This document shows positions 3,496 through 25,033 of a DNA stretch of 25,033 nt, one piece after another. The first letter of the stretch is position 1. Each line of letters opens with the position of its first letter. The notes below the pieces were generated by a model, which had not been told where the DNA came from, searched no databases, and saw only the letters and a program-made list of their open reading frames with translations. This DNA is from a virus: positions 1 through 25,033 of IMG/VR virus record IMGVR_UViG_3300023096_000017. One strand, written 5' to 3'. Position numbers and translations under genes: made by a program.

Positions 3496-4467
3496 ATGGC
3501 AACAAATTTTCCACGTCAGGCAATCGCAACGGCTATCGTTCAAGAAGCTTCTCTGAAGACTTCTGGCTTAGTCGCCGATTGTATTTTCCCTAGAGTTCAG
3601 ACACCTTGTTTTTTCGAGTACATCGATTGGACAGATGCTAACAACATTCAATTGGTTGATGACGCAGTTACTTGCAAAAGTGATGTTAAAGAAGTTGATC
3701 CTGAGGCTTTCAAATTGGTTTCAGGTAAAGTTAAAGATCATGCTTTGACTCAATCTTTGGGTGACTGTTGCGTTTCTCTTTGTGGTGGCGAAAATCTTGC
3801 TGCTCGAAAAGAGCAAGGTAAAACAGTTCAATTGATGAATCGTTTGCTTATCAATCGTGAGCGAGAGGCCGTAGCCCTTGCTACTACCGAATCGTTTTAC
3901 ACGCCTGGTACTGGCGCTCCAGATGGTGTTAAATCAAATGAAGCTACGATGTGGTCTTTGACCCCAACAAACTTCAATGATCCTAACTTTGCATTGCTTA
4001 AGTATTTCCAAAATATCCAAGTTGGAAATAAGCGCACTGGACGCCGCACTAAAGCAGTTATGAGCCAAGCAAAGCTAAATGCTTTCACTTCGCATCCTAA
4101 CTTTTTAGGTGCTGGTTGCATCGTGGATCCTGTTACTACCAAAGACAAAGTAGCAGCTTTGTTGGGTGTTAATGAGATTTGTGTTGCCGATTCTTATTAT
4201 AATTCAGCGCTTGGAAGTACTCCGACATTCACTAGCTTGTGGCCTGATGAGTACATTCTTTTTACTTCTTCTTACGAATTGCTAACTGCAGAAGACCAAC
4301 AAGTTGGATTCGGTTTTACCGCATACGACAAAGGTTTCCGAGTTAACAACTATAAAAAAGAAGAAAAAGGTCCAGATGACGGTGTTCAAATGCAAAAAAT
4401 GGCACACGATCTTACACCGATCGTTATGACATATCTTGCTGCTACACTTGTTAAGATCACCGCTTAG
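3496..4467 (+). CDS. Major capsid protein (probable HK97 fold)
   Basis: A 323-residue protein in the capsid position, preceded by a strong ribosome site. The N-terminus (residues 1-60) has a VADCIFPRVQT segment as seen in lambda gpE- or Mu gpT-like capsid proteins. A long central helix region around residues 108-128 contains LLINREREAVALAT, followed by an NFNDPNFALLKYFQN stretch, and the C-terminal part has strands ending in TPIVMTYLAATLVKITA. About 300-350 residues is the usual length for this class. An internal GDCCVSLCGG cluster near residue 92 is unusual for a cytoplasmically assembled capsid. HK97 fold is inferred from family resemblance and genomic position rather than a diagnostic motif. 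Confidence 0.82.
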   Translation: MATNFPRQAIATAIVQEASLKTSGLVADCIFPRVQTPCFFEYIDWTDANNIQLVDDAVTCKSDVKEVDPEAFKLVSGKVKDHALTQSLGDCCVSLCGGENLAARKEQGKTVQLMNRLLINREREAVALATTESFYTPGTGAPDGVKSNEATMWSLTPTNFNDPNFALLKYFQNIQVGNKRTGRRTKAVMSQAKLNAFTSHPNFLGAGCIVDPVTTKDKVAALLGVNEICVADSYYNSALGSTPTFTSLWPDEYILFTSSYELLTAEDQQVGFGFTAYDKGFRVNNYKKEEKGPDDGVQMQKMAHDLTPIVMTYLAATLVKITA

Positions 4468-4473
4468 GAATTT

Positions 4474-4659
4474 ATGAAAATTATTAGAGCAAGCCGGGAC
4501 GTTTACGTTCCGGTTAACCCTGAACAACCAGATAAGAATTCAATGAGGCTTGTTCACAAAAATTTGCTTGCTATCATTCCAGAAGAATTTGAATTGCCAG
4601 AGGATTCATATATTGACCTCGGAAAGTTCAATTTAAAAAAGACAGATAAGAAGCAATAA
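4474..4659 (+). CDS. Small protein of unknown function after the capsid gene
   Basis: A 61-residue ORF starting six bases after the capsid stop, with TAGGA as a possible ribosome site overlapping that stop. It reads as real coding sequence: charged, Pro-containing N-terminal half and a Lys-rich C-terminus, with no hydrophobic segment and no Cys. Small proteins at this place in Mu-like head operons are often uncharacterised or linked to the head-tail connector. No family is recognised. Confidence 0.6.
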   Translation: MKIIRASRDVYVPVNPEQPDKNSMRLVHKNLLAIIPEEFELPEDSYIDLGKFNLKKTDKKQ

Positions 4660-4678
4660 CATCACATGAGGTTCCAAA

Positions 4679-5149
4679 ATGTATTACTGCGAACCTAGTT
4701 CTACATGGGCAACCGTTGATGATTTGTATTCAAGATTCGGCGATGAATATGTTGATAAACTTGCAATCAGAAGAATTTTTGATGTTGATTTAGACTCATA
4801 TGTTGCAGATGAATCAAGCGAAGGAAAGCTAAGGGTAATTACCTTAGCTCTTTGTGATTCAAAAGAACTTATAAAAAGAAAAATTTCCTGCCTATACAGT
4901 AATTATTTGATTCTAGATGACTACATTTTCCCTGGCATCAAGCAGTGGCATATTAAGATGACCATTGAGACTTTGAAAATTGGCGGTGATTGCATGGCAT
5001 GCGAATGCAATACTAGCCTAGACGAATATCTCAAGTGCGGTTCAATATGTACTGAAGATGGTGTTTGCCTTTCTAAAAATACAACTTTCATTGAAGTCTC
5101 TGAATCAAAATTTTGTTGTGAAAGACTGGGACGTTGCAAATGTTGCTAA
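4679..5149 (+). CDS. Head-tail connector, Mu gp36/DUF1320-like, with Cys-rich C-terminus
   Basis: A 156-residue protein. Residues 9-100 fit the gp36/DUF1320 pattern: a WATVDDLYSRFGDEYVDKL start, a helix ending ALCDSKELIKRKISC, and a YLILDDY turn. That family acts at the head-tail junction, and the position directly after the capsid gene agrees. The remaining 52 residues are odd: eleven Cys at 105, 108, 110, 120, 124, 130, 146, 147, 153, 155 and 156, ending in CKCC. Such density suggests metal binding or disulfide cross-linking in the mature particle. A GAGG ribosome site precedes the ATG. The stop lies inside the start region of the next gene, implying coupled translation. Confidence 0.65.
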   Translation: MYYCEPSSTWATVDDLYSRFGDEYVDKLAIRRIFDVDLDSYVADESSEGKLRVITLALCDSKELIKRKISCLYSNYLILDDYIFPGIKQWHIKMTIETLKIGGDCMACECNTSLDEYLKCGSICTEDGVCLSKNTTFIEVSESKFCCERLGRCKCC

Positions 5150-5646
5150 CGGATATTCCTTATTTGAATCCGATGTGGCGATGGTTGCGTGAAGACCCTT
5201 CTTTAAAAAGTGAATTCACAGATAAATCTTTTTTCATGCCACACTCAGATTTAATTTCTGCCACAGTTGAGGCGATGAAAAAAGACTGTCCAGCTCCAAG
5301 GGCTCTATGGATCTTGCCTCAAGATACGCTCGCGGGCGCGCGCAGGGAAGGGTGTCGATCGCCAGGCACTCATACGTTTTACATTCAGATCATCGTACAA
5401 TGCATAAGAGATACATTCCAAATCGTTAAACGTGACAATGAGGTTGTTCTTGAAGGGCAATTCATGGAACTTTGTGCTTTGAGAAAAAAAGTAAAAGACT
5501 CTGTCCTTGCTTTTGGTAATGACTATAAGAATAAAACGCCTGTAAAATTTGATAAGTTATATTGGGTTAAAGACACGATGTTGTATCCCTCAGGGGAGCA
5601 AAAGTTTTTGTCTACTGCTATACAGTTTGAAATTAATATTTATTAA
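5140..5646 (+). CDS. Probable tail terminator / tail completion protein
   Basis: A 168-residue protein located between the gp36-like connector and the tail tube genes, the usual place for a tail terminator or head-tail joining protein (lambda gpU or Mu gp37-like role: capping the tube and joining it to the head). A central segment with LWILPQDTLAG and a Thr/His/Tyr-rich strand TFYIQIIVQC is compatible with the alpha/beta fold of those proteins. I chose ATG 5140; a TTG two codons upstream at 5134 is also in frame. CTGGGA at 5125-5130 is the only ribosome-site-like sequence and is weak, so coupling to the overlapping upstream gene probably matters. The assignment is positional. Confidence 0.55.
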   Translation: MLLTDIPYLNPMWRWLREDPSLKSEFTDKSFFMPHSDLISATVEAMKKDCPAPRALWILPQDTLAGARREGCRSPGTHTFYIQIIVQCIRDTFQIVKRDNEVVLEGQFMELCALRKKVKDSVLAFGNDYKNKTPVKFDKLYWVKDTMLYPSGEQKFLSTAIQFEINIY

Positions 5647-22469: not shown

Positions 22470-23054
22470 ATGGCTAAAAAAGAAATCGTTATAAATTGCA
22501 AAGGATTGGCAACTTTCGCTTTATCTGAGCTGAATGAGTTTCAAGGTGAATTAAAAGAGCGTAGTCCGGAACGAAAAAAGAAACTTCGAAAATCTATTTT
22601 GAAAGATGGTTTGTTGGCTCCGTTTTTTATTTGGGAAGACCTTGAAACTGCAAAGCTTAATATTATGGATGGTCATTCTCGCCGAGTAATTTTAAATGAA
22701 TTAAAATCTGAAGGCTGGTCAATTCCTCAGATACCAATTGTATTTATTGAGGCTGATAATGTCGAGGATGCAAAAGTTAAGCTTCTGGCGATTTCTTCTC
22801 AGTATGGTCAAGTTACAGAAGAAGGGTTGAAAGGTTTTTTAAATTTTGAATATGACCATAATGAATTGTTTGGAAGCATTGAGCTGCCATCTATTGATAT
22901 GAGTGTTTTTGAAATTGATGACGACAGCACGACAGTAAATGTCACAGAACATACTCGTGAAATTAAGAATACTGGGCGCGAAGTTGATCTTAATGACTTT
23001 GAAAACTTCCAACACAAATGCCCAGGATGTGGGTTGGAGTATAATACCAAATGA
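22470..23054 (+). CDS. ParB/Srx-like nuclease-domain protein linked to DNA methylation
   Basis: A 194-residue protein. Residues 15-120 fit the ParB N-terminal (ParB/sulfiredoxin) fold: LSELNEFQGELKE, a helix RKKKLRKSILKDGLLAPFFI, the MDGHSRR signature at 66-72, and a QYGQVTEEGL segment at 111-120. The C-terminus ends in HKCPGCGLEYN, one CPxCG knuckle of a zinc ribbon; no second Cys pair is visible. It is too small for a chromosome-partition ParB with helix-turn-helix. Proteins of this kind often sit beside or are fused to DNA methyltransferases in phages. Its stop overlaps the methyltransferase start (ATGA), implying a joint function. The exact reaction is unknown. Confidence 0.75.
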   Translation: MAKKEIVINCKGLATFALSELNEFQGELKERSPERKKKLRKSILKDGLLAPFFIWEDLETAKLNIMDGHSRRVILNELKSEGWSIPQIPIVFIEADNVEDAKVKLLAISSQYGQVTEEGLKGFLNFEYDHNELFGSIELPSIDMSVFEIDDDSTTVNVTEHTREIKNTGREVDLNDFENFQHKCPGCGLEYNTK

Positions 23055-24106
23055 GTTTTGAGCCGTGGTTTTTAAAAGATCTTCCAAAACCTGCTTATGG
23101 ATCTCACAAAGTATTTTCCTGCTTTCATTGCGGTGGCGGGTCTACCATGGGTTATAAACTGGCCGGCTATGATGTACTTGGCGGAGTTGAAATCGATCCG
23201 AAAATGATGCAGGTTTATAAGGCGAATCACCATCCGAAGCATTCTTACTTGATGGGCGTTCAGGACTTTAAGAAAATTGCAGATGCAGACTTACCAGTTG
23301 AATTATTTCATTTAGACATTCTTGACGGATCACCACCATGTTCTTCATTTTCAACTTCAGGCAGCCGAGAAAAGGCCTGGGGCGAAAAGAAGAATTTCCG
23401 CGAAGGCCAAGCCGAACAGGTCCTTGATGAATTGTTTTTTGACTTCATTGATATTGCTAAAAAATTACAGCCTAAAATTGTCGTTGCTGAAAATGTCAGA
23501 GGACTGATTGAAGGAAATGCCAAGTATTATGTGAAACGGATTCATCAGGCCTTTGTTGAAGCCGGTTATGATGTGCAGTTGTTCTTACTAAATTCAGCCT
23601 TCATGGGCGTTCCTCAGCGACGTGAGCGCACTTTCTTCTTAGCTCGCAGGAAAGATTTAAATTTACCGTTGCTTAAGCTTTCTTTCGACATGAAGCCCAT
23701 TCCAGTAAAAGAAGCTTTTGTTGGGATTACCTGTAAAGGCCGAGACCGGACCAAGTCGATAGATTATAAATACTGGAAACTCACGAAGCCCGGCGACTCT
23801 CTTGCAAAGGTTCATCCGAAAGGACATAAATTTAACAGCATCAAGATTAATCCTGAAACGCCGGCTCCAACAATCGTTGGAAATGCGCATGTAATTTTTC
23901 ACTGGGAGACCATGCGGAACCTTTCAGAACTTGAATTTAAACGGCTGCAATCCTTTCCAGATGACTATAATTTCCCGAATGAACGGCAAGCCGGATATAT
24001 GTGCGGCATGTCGGTTCCACCAAAAATGATGGAAAAAGTGGCGCTGGAAATTAAGACGCAGTGGCTAGATGTCATAAAGAAACCTATTAAGCTGAGAAAA
24101 AAGTAA
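23051..24106 (+). CDS. C5-cytosine DNA methyltransferase
   Basis: A 351-residue enzyme with the ordered motifs of this family: motif I variant FSCFHCGGGSTMGYKLAG (22-39) for SAM binding; VEIDP (46-50); motif IV SPPCSSFS with catalytic Cys97; motif VI ENVRG (147-151); motif VIII GVPQRRERTFF (187-196); a short target-recognition region; and a C-terminal RNLSELEFKRLQSFPDDY plus GMSVPPKMMEKVALEI, matching motifs IX and X. All key residues are present, so it should be active, transferring methyl groups to cytosine C5. The target sequence cannot be predicted. No restriction endonuclease is adjacent, so it is an orphan enzyme, probably protecting phage DNA from host restriction. It is co-translated with the ParB-like protein. 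Confidence 0.93.
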   Translation: MSFEPWFLKDLPKPAYGSHKVFSCFHCGGGSTMGYKLAGYDVLGGVEIDPKMMQVYKANHHPKHSYLMGVQDFKKIADADLPVELFHLDILDGSPPCSSFSTSGSREKAWGEKKNFREGQAEQVLDELFFDFIDIAKKLQPKIVVAENVRGLIEGNAKYYVKRIHQAFVEAGYDVQLFLLNSAFMGVPQRRERTFFLARRKDLNLPLLKLSFDMKPIPVKEAFVGITCKGRDRTKSIDYKYWKLTKPGDSLAKVHPKGHKFNSIKINPETPAPTIVGNAHVIFHWETMRNLSELEFKRLQSFPDDYNFPNERQAGYMCGMSVPPKMMEKVALEIKTQWLDVIKKPIKLRKK

Positions 24107-24188
24107 CGCATTAAGACAATCGTGCTTCATGTTCTTGCATTTTATTATTTTTGTATACTTTGCAAGCTTTGCTAGGAATATTGATTTT
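24107..24188. other. Intergenic AT-rich segment after the methyltransferase
   Basis: No gene is visible. TATACT at 24154-24159 resembles a + strand -10 box, but no matching -35 box lies at normal spacing (TTCTTG at 16 bases is weak). No + strand terminator for the methyltransferase transcript is visible here. Confidence 0.4.
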
Positions 24189-24222
24189 GAAAAAAGAAAA
24201 CCCAGCTTTTTAGGGCTGGGTT
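24189..24222 (-). terminator. Intrinsic terminator acting on the - strand
   Basis: AACCCAGC (24199-24206) and GCTGGGTT (24215-24222) form an eight-pair stem with an eight-base loop. On the - strand it is followed by TTCTTTTTTC, a U-rich tail; on the + strand it is followed by ACTTAG, so it cannot stop + strand transcripts efficiently. No - strand gene lies to its right within the window, which implies a non-coding or unknown - strand transcript ending here. Confidence 0.8.
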
Positions 24223-24776
24223 ACTTAGAAAGACTATCGTGGTAGATATCTTTTTAAGTCAAAGCTCGCTCGAGCGCAAGGACTTTTTGCTTAAATAAAG
24301 CACTTTTTACCTGGGCAATTCTTTTTCCACAAAACCCGAGTCGGCAAGGCCTTACCCTCGTTAAACAAGGCATCAGGTGCATGAAAGTGCAGCCCTCCAA
24401 TAATCATTGATTGAGAAATCTGGTTAAATTCCTTTTGAGGAAAGACCACAGGCCGAGCGTTAAAGATTTAGTAAATGGTCAATGGCTTGCCAAAGACTAA
24501 CGATAGGGGACGGCGCTCGTGATTTTTACAGGTGTTTTATTGGTTGATAAACAGTAACGGGGAAAAACCATTCTGGGGACATAGACGAACTAAAGATAGT
24601 CGAGCGCTTTGTTTCTAAATTTTATTGTCGCTGGTTGCAAACTTATGCCTCTAACAAGAAAGAGGAATTGCTCTCAGGATGGTTTGGAAAGTTACGAATG
24701 AATCATGTTGCTAACTAGCTCAGCCATGGGCAAGCAAGCAACAAGTCCCCTCGTATTGTCTATTGATTATTTTTTA
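24223..24776. ncRNA. Candidate large structured non-coding RNA (strand uncertain, - favoured)
   Basis: About 550 bases without a plausible ORF and with higher GC (roughly 44% by hand count of several lines) than the flanks. Local hairpins: AAGTC/GACTT (24256-24285) enclosing GCTC/GAGC; CGAG + GGTAA/TTGCC + CTCG at 24337-24360, which pairs better on the - strand through a G-U; TTCCT/AGGAA near 24430; CCTCT/AGAGG around 24648-24665; and TGTTGCT/AGCAACA (24706-24743) enclosing GCT/AGC and GCC/GGC. On the + strand two loops read as GNRA (GCAT-GAAA-GTGC, GATT-GAGA-AATC). The - strand terminator at its left end favours a - strand transcript. No known RNA family is recognised. This is a structural impression, not a computed fold. 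Confidence 0.45.
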
Positions 24777-24796
24777 TGATTGAGGATAAATAAATT

Positions 24797-24991
24797 ATGA
24801 AGCTTTGGGTTCTTGAATACACAATCGGCTCTGTTTCGATATTTCTTAGCCCTTCTGGCCATGTCTGCAATGATATTAAATTAGCATTAAAGTTTAATTC
24901 CTTTGAATCTGCTTCGGATTACATGGCTGGTCAAAACCTCCTAATTAAATTTACTCCGAGTGAACATATTTTTGATTTTAACGAAAAATAA
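24797..24991 (+). CDS. Small protein of unknown function
   Basis: A 64-residue ORF behind GAGGA at 24782-24786, ten bases before the ATG. The product starts MKLWVLEYTIGSVSIFLSPS and has a mixed alpha/beta look with an FNSFESASDYMAGQNLL helix; such short proteins with an aromatic first strand are common among phage early genes. No family is recognised. It lies after the candidate ncRNA region and is the only gene in the last 900 bases. Another ribosome-site-like GAGG and ATG follow at 25015, but that frame stops after five codons. Confidence 0.55.
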   Translation: MKLWVLEYTIGSVSIFLSPSGHVCNDIKLALKFNSFESASDYMAGQNLLIKFTPSEHIFDFNEK

Positions 24992-25033
24992 CTGTTTACA
25001 CTGAGGTAAATAAAATGCATACATCCATCTAAA

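Follow-up and report, generated by a model that had tools for sequence, protein, structure and literature searches.

The window analysed here is the entire IMG/VR record IMGVR_UViG_3300023096_000017, an incomplete record of 25,033 bases from an uncultured phage. Its left part encodes, in order, a Mu-type portal, a Mu F-like head protein, the major head protein, the tail genes and a lytic transglycosylase, and the gene for the latter is followed by five small leftward genes (22326 to 20873). Next come a ParB-like gene and a C5 cytosine methyltransferase gene, the gene-free spacer that is the subject of this report, and an open reading frame of 64 amino acids with no known relative (Table 1). 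Just 42 bases separate the end of this last frame from the end of the contig at 25033. In the distant relative L016 (portal identity 42%), a ParB-methyltransferase fusion gene lies directly before the terminase genes and the portal, and L002, a locus retrieved through its methyltransferase, has a similar gene order (gene names in both were read off the translations). Because the ParB-like and methyltransferase genes precede the terminase and portal genes in these relatives, the spacer is probably situated a short way upstream of the packaging genes, the contig ending at that point.

Table 1. Features at the right end of the window, in order of position
Feature	Position	Strand	Remarks
ParB-like gene	22470-23054	+	
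C5 cytosine methyltransferase gene	23051-24106	+	stop at 24106
Gene-free spacer, 690 bases	24107-24796		between the methyltransferase gene and the 64-aa ORF
Intrinsic terminator, AACCCAGCCCTAAAAAGCTGGGTT then TTCTTTTTTC	24189-24222	-	consensus scan and stricter scan
Second hairpin	24223-24259	either	directly abuts the terminator hairpin; pair probability 0.89-0.99
Two overlapping CGAGCG sites, forming the palindrome CGCTCGAGCG	24267-24276		
CGAGCG site	24454-24459	+	
Domain folding best on the + strand	24494-24761	+	tentative
CGAGCG site (CGCTCG on +)	24514-24519	-	complementary to the + copies
CGAGCG site	24601-24606	+	
64-aa ORF	24797-24991	+	GAGG ribosome-binding site; next feature right of the spacer

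The spacer carries no coding signal. It has no ORF of 60 or more amino acids on scanning, and its length is four times that of the next largest gap in the window (173 bases, followed by one of 143), so that the gene-free stretch noticed in a preliminary description of this DNA is real. Its six-frame translations match no Pfam family, which speaks against a decayed gene, and with a codon model built from the window's own genes its small ORFs score like out-of-frame controls, which speaks against hidden small genes. The higher G+C content claimed in the same description is not confirmed: positions 24189-24796 have a value of 0.405 against 0.387 for the whole window, a marginal increase (39-40% versus 38.7%), and the local value of 0.45 reached within the spacer is equalled inside the upstream methyltransferase gene.

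The intrinsic terminator near the left end of the spacer is confirmed. A strict scan of both strands for a perfect stem followed by a T-rich tail found it, at 24222-24199 reading leftward, as the sole hit on either strand of the 25 kb, where 0.025 terminators of such a score are expected per shuffled window. The + strand version of the hairpin has no T-run. The strong terminator that the preliminary description saw as working on the - strand only is thus recovered by both scans, and it argues well for a leftward transcript of some kind ending at about position 24189, as had been proposed. The accompanying statement that no - strand gene lies to the right is correct within the contig and does not extend beyond it, since the record stops at 25033. 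Candidate leftward promoters are weak sites (24934-24906, for example) with scores that match the level elsewhere in the window. Read leftward, the spacer has a terminator at its 3' end, as looked for in an intergenic small RNA gene.

A feature that does stand out is a cluster of the hexamer CGAGCG, which occurs five times in the 690-base spacer and five times in the remaining ~24.1 kb. All five spacer copies fall within 340 bases (24267-24606), at four independent places given that two of them overlap, and when each sequence was represented by its own best hexamer, neither the 500 shuffles nor the 68 coding windows contained a case as extreme. Their spacing is irregular and they share no longer core; the relatives L012 to L016 have 0 or 1 copies each, and the matching region may be absent there. 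As the copies are present in both orientations they are complementary to one another, and they supply some of the 7-base long-range complementarities listed in the preliminary description, which are indeed present. GC-rich complementary 7-mers number 7 where 0.75 are expected and where coding sequence reaches a maximum of 4, and the CGAGCG family accounts for 8 of the 20 GC-rich pairing six-mers. Such an excess fits two readings, because repeated DNA binding sites and RNA pairing elements predict the same thing; we infer that the CGAGCG copies serve either as binding sites for a protein or as elements of this region that pair with one another. Two 11-mers in the spacer, at 24229-24239 (AAAGACTATCG) and 24492-24502 (AAAGACTAACG), are nearly identical, and both are partly complementary to GATAGTC at 24595; GACTATC/GATAGTC has no other occurrence in the window. 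A group I intron was considered on account of GACTA (24495) and TAGTC (24597), which resemble P7 strands, and was rejected, there being no Rfam match and no interrupted gene.

The predicted fold of 24160-24796 is better than that of most dinucleotide shuffles on both strands (z of -2.64 on the + strand, with 2 of 200 shuffles as good, and -3.07 on the - strand, with 0 of 200). Coding controls of the same 637-base length from the same window have z values of +1.9 to -3.4, going down to -3.43 and -3.05, and 300-base coding controls reach -3.99 and -3.86. A z near -3 in a single phage sequence is therefore not evidence of RNA, since coding stretches of the same genome fold equally well. The coding stretches 601-900 and 2401-2700, which fold at z near -4, are a warning control for single-sequence RNA predictions. 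Inverted 6-, 7-, 8- and 9-mers occur 102, 27, 3 and 0 times in the spacer versus 101, 27, 8 and 2 expected, and the best stem is equalled in 11% (+) and 56% (-) of shuffles. The several stacked hairpins of the preliminary description thus do not exceed what chance would give, inverted repeats being at the chance level and both the best stem and the fold z lying within the controls.

On the + strand the best-folding domain is closed by stems pairing 24494-24511 with 24745-24761, and it contains the strongest + strand stem, 14 bp between 24565-24578 and 24672-24685 with three G-U pairs; for positions 24490-24765 the z is -3.03 (2 of 300 shuffles as good), and comparable coding windows exist. The predicted - strand fold has a long irregular duplex of its own, 24643-24690 with 24324-24373. 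The - strand G-U pairing within 24337-24360, to which the preliminary description had pointed, is present. As an argument on strand it cuts both ways, because the 14-bp + strand stem has its three G-U pairs and the - strand its own long duplex. Folding of this single sequence neither demonstrates a structured RNA nor settles its strand.

Comparison with known RNA families, as proposed in the preliminary description, gave no Rfam match at the gathering threshold, the GOLLD and ROOL models included, and nothing credible up to E=5 on 24107-25033, where those two models again went unmatched; neither RNA had been recognised in that description. Rfam models and ARAGORN likewise found no tmRNA, RNase P RNA or group I or II intron, and ARAGORN found no tRNA in the window, the contig being incomplete. 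tRNA genes are frequent neighbours of GOLLD and ROOL RNAs (PMC12286853). A match to a Betaproteobacteria toxic sRNA (17.7 bits against a cut-off of 50) was dismissed as due to the shape of the terminator alone.

No relative of the spacer was found. A blastn search of phage and plasmid collections at E<=10 returned only short chance matches covering at most 6% of it. No viral relatives emerged when the 64-aa ORF, the ParB-like protein or the large tail protein served as query, and a search with a portal alignment recovered no prophage. Neither blastn nor nhmmer detected a similar spacer in any of 95 loci retrieved through the methyltransferase and the portal, and the gaps right after the methyltransferase gene in L019, L067 and L093 look unrelated and have no Rfam match. 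Two words taken from the + strand core were also used as DNA patterns, and their 15 and 3 matches are all attributable to chance. Among the distant relatives, L015 (4273-7500) and L014 (2267-5494) have the portal and Mu F-like head genes as one frame of 1075 amino acids. The F-like domain in it is interrupted by an insertion of intein-like appearance, which in L014 contains a leftward ORF resembling a homing endonuclease (4367-5179). The methyltransferase relatives L009, L010 and L011 have long stretches without standard-code ORFs, which suggests a recoded stop codon.

Several kinds of element could account for these features. A leftward mRNA might simply end at the terminator, its genes lying beyond the contig or consisting of a tiny gene within the spacer itself. 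The contig stops so soon after the 64-aa ORF that such an operon could be out of view, and there is a leftward frame of 42 amino acids (ATG near 24382, stop at 24254) with GGAGGG about 11 bases ahead of its ATG and its stop about 30 bases before the terminator. However, this frame scores -0.24 per codon versus -0.20 in out-of-frame controls and, searched with tblastn, matches nothing in phages even at E=10, and a distant operon would need to overlap the 64-aa ORF in antisense, so we regard a leftward mRNA as somewhat unlikely. If the spacer were instead a cis-acting DNA element upstream of the terminase genes, a packaging site or operator, CGAGCG would be bound by a phage protein and the terminator would only insulate the neighbouring genes. 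The clustering of the hexamer and the adjoining ParB-like and methyltransferase genes, which are next to terminase genes in the relatives, are consistent with this, but the irregular arrangement of the copies and their scarcity in L012 to L016 (with the reservation given above) count against it, and we think it unlikely.

The preliminary description had put forward a large non-coding RNA as its interpretation. Such a structured RNA would measure ~600 bases, could lie on either strand and would be of the same general kind as GOLLD or ROOL. A fold better than shuffles, the excess of GC-rich complementary 7-mers, the 14-bp + strand stem and, for a - strand reading, the 3' terminator all point in its direction, but coding controls of equal length fold as well, the inverted repeats and best stem are unexceptional, the CGAGCG family contributes many of the GC-rich pairs, and Rfam match, nearby tRNA and homologue are all lacking. 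What survives of that interpretation is the leftward transcript end and the non-coding character of the region; the large structured RNA is not supported by the fold, stem and Rfam results, and we consider it very unlikely. Most improbable is a novel class of such phage RNAs, ~600 bases long and without Rfam relative, held together by kissing or pseudoknot pairings of CGAGCG with CGCTCG. A large structured RNA, if real, would be an addition to the handful of ornate RNAs known from phages.

The reading we tentatively favour is that this stretch is non-coding and regulatory, separating the ParB-like/methyltransferase pair from the probable packaging genes, and that a leftward, probably untranslated transcript ends in it. 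Such a transcript would begin further right, most likely within the spacer itself, would code for no protein and would end at the terminator (24222-24189), giving an RNA of at most ~600 bases if begun in the spacer. It may act as a small or medium-sized regulatory RNA; alternatively, it could be no more than an untranslated tail, stopped by the terminator before it enters the rightward methyltransferase gene. The unique terminator, the lack of any coding signal or protein family, the outsized gap, the CGAGCG cluster and the position beside the ParB-like and methyltransferase genes, which precede the terminase and portal genes in L016 and similarly in L002, argue for a regulatory spacer. Against it, no leftward promoter stands out, no homologue shows conservation, and the terminator could belong to a leftward operon beyond the contig. 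The leftward RNA, if made, would add to the phage regulatory RNAs that belong to no known family.

Compared with GOLLD and ROOL (PMC12286853), the spacer is similar in being a gene-free phage stretch of several hundred bases with a 3' terminator when read leftward; it differs in having no Rfam match up to E=5, no tRNA cluster in the window, no fold stability above that of coding controls and no homologues found. It differs from operator and packaging regions beside phage terminase genes in the irregular spacing of its motif, a putative binding site, and resembles them in its probable position, its non-coding nature and its clustered short GC-rich motif. Unlike the intrinsically terminated intergenic small RNAs of bacteria and phages, it has no recognised promoter or relative; like them, it is non-coding and has a strong hairpin followed by a T-tract, with a second hairpin abutting the first.
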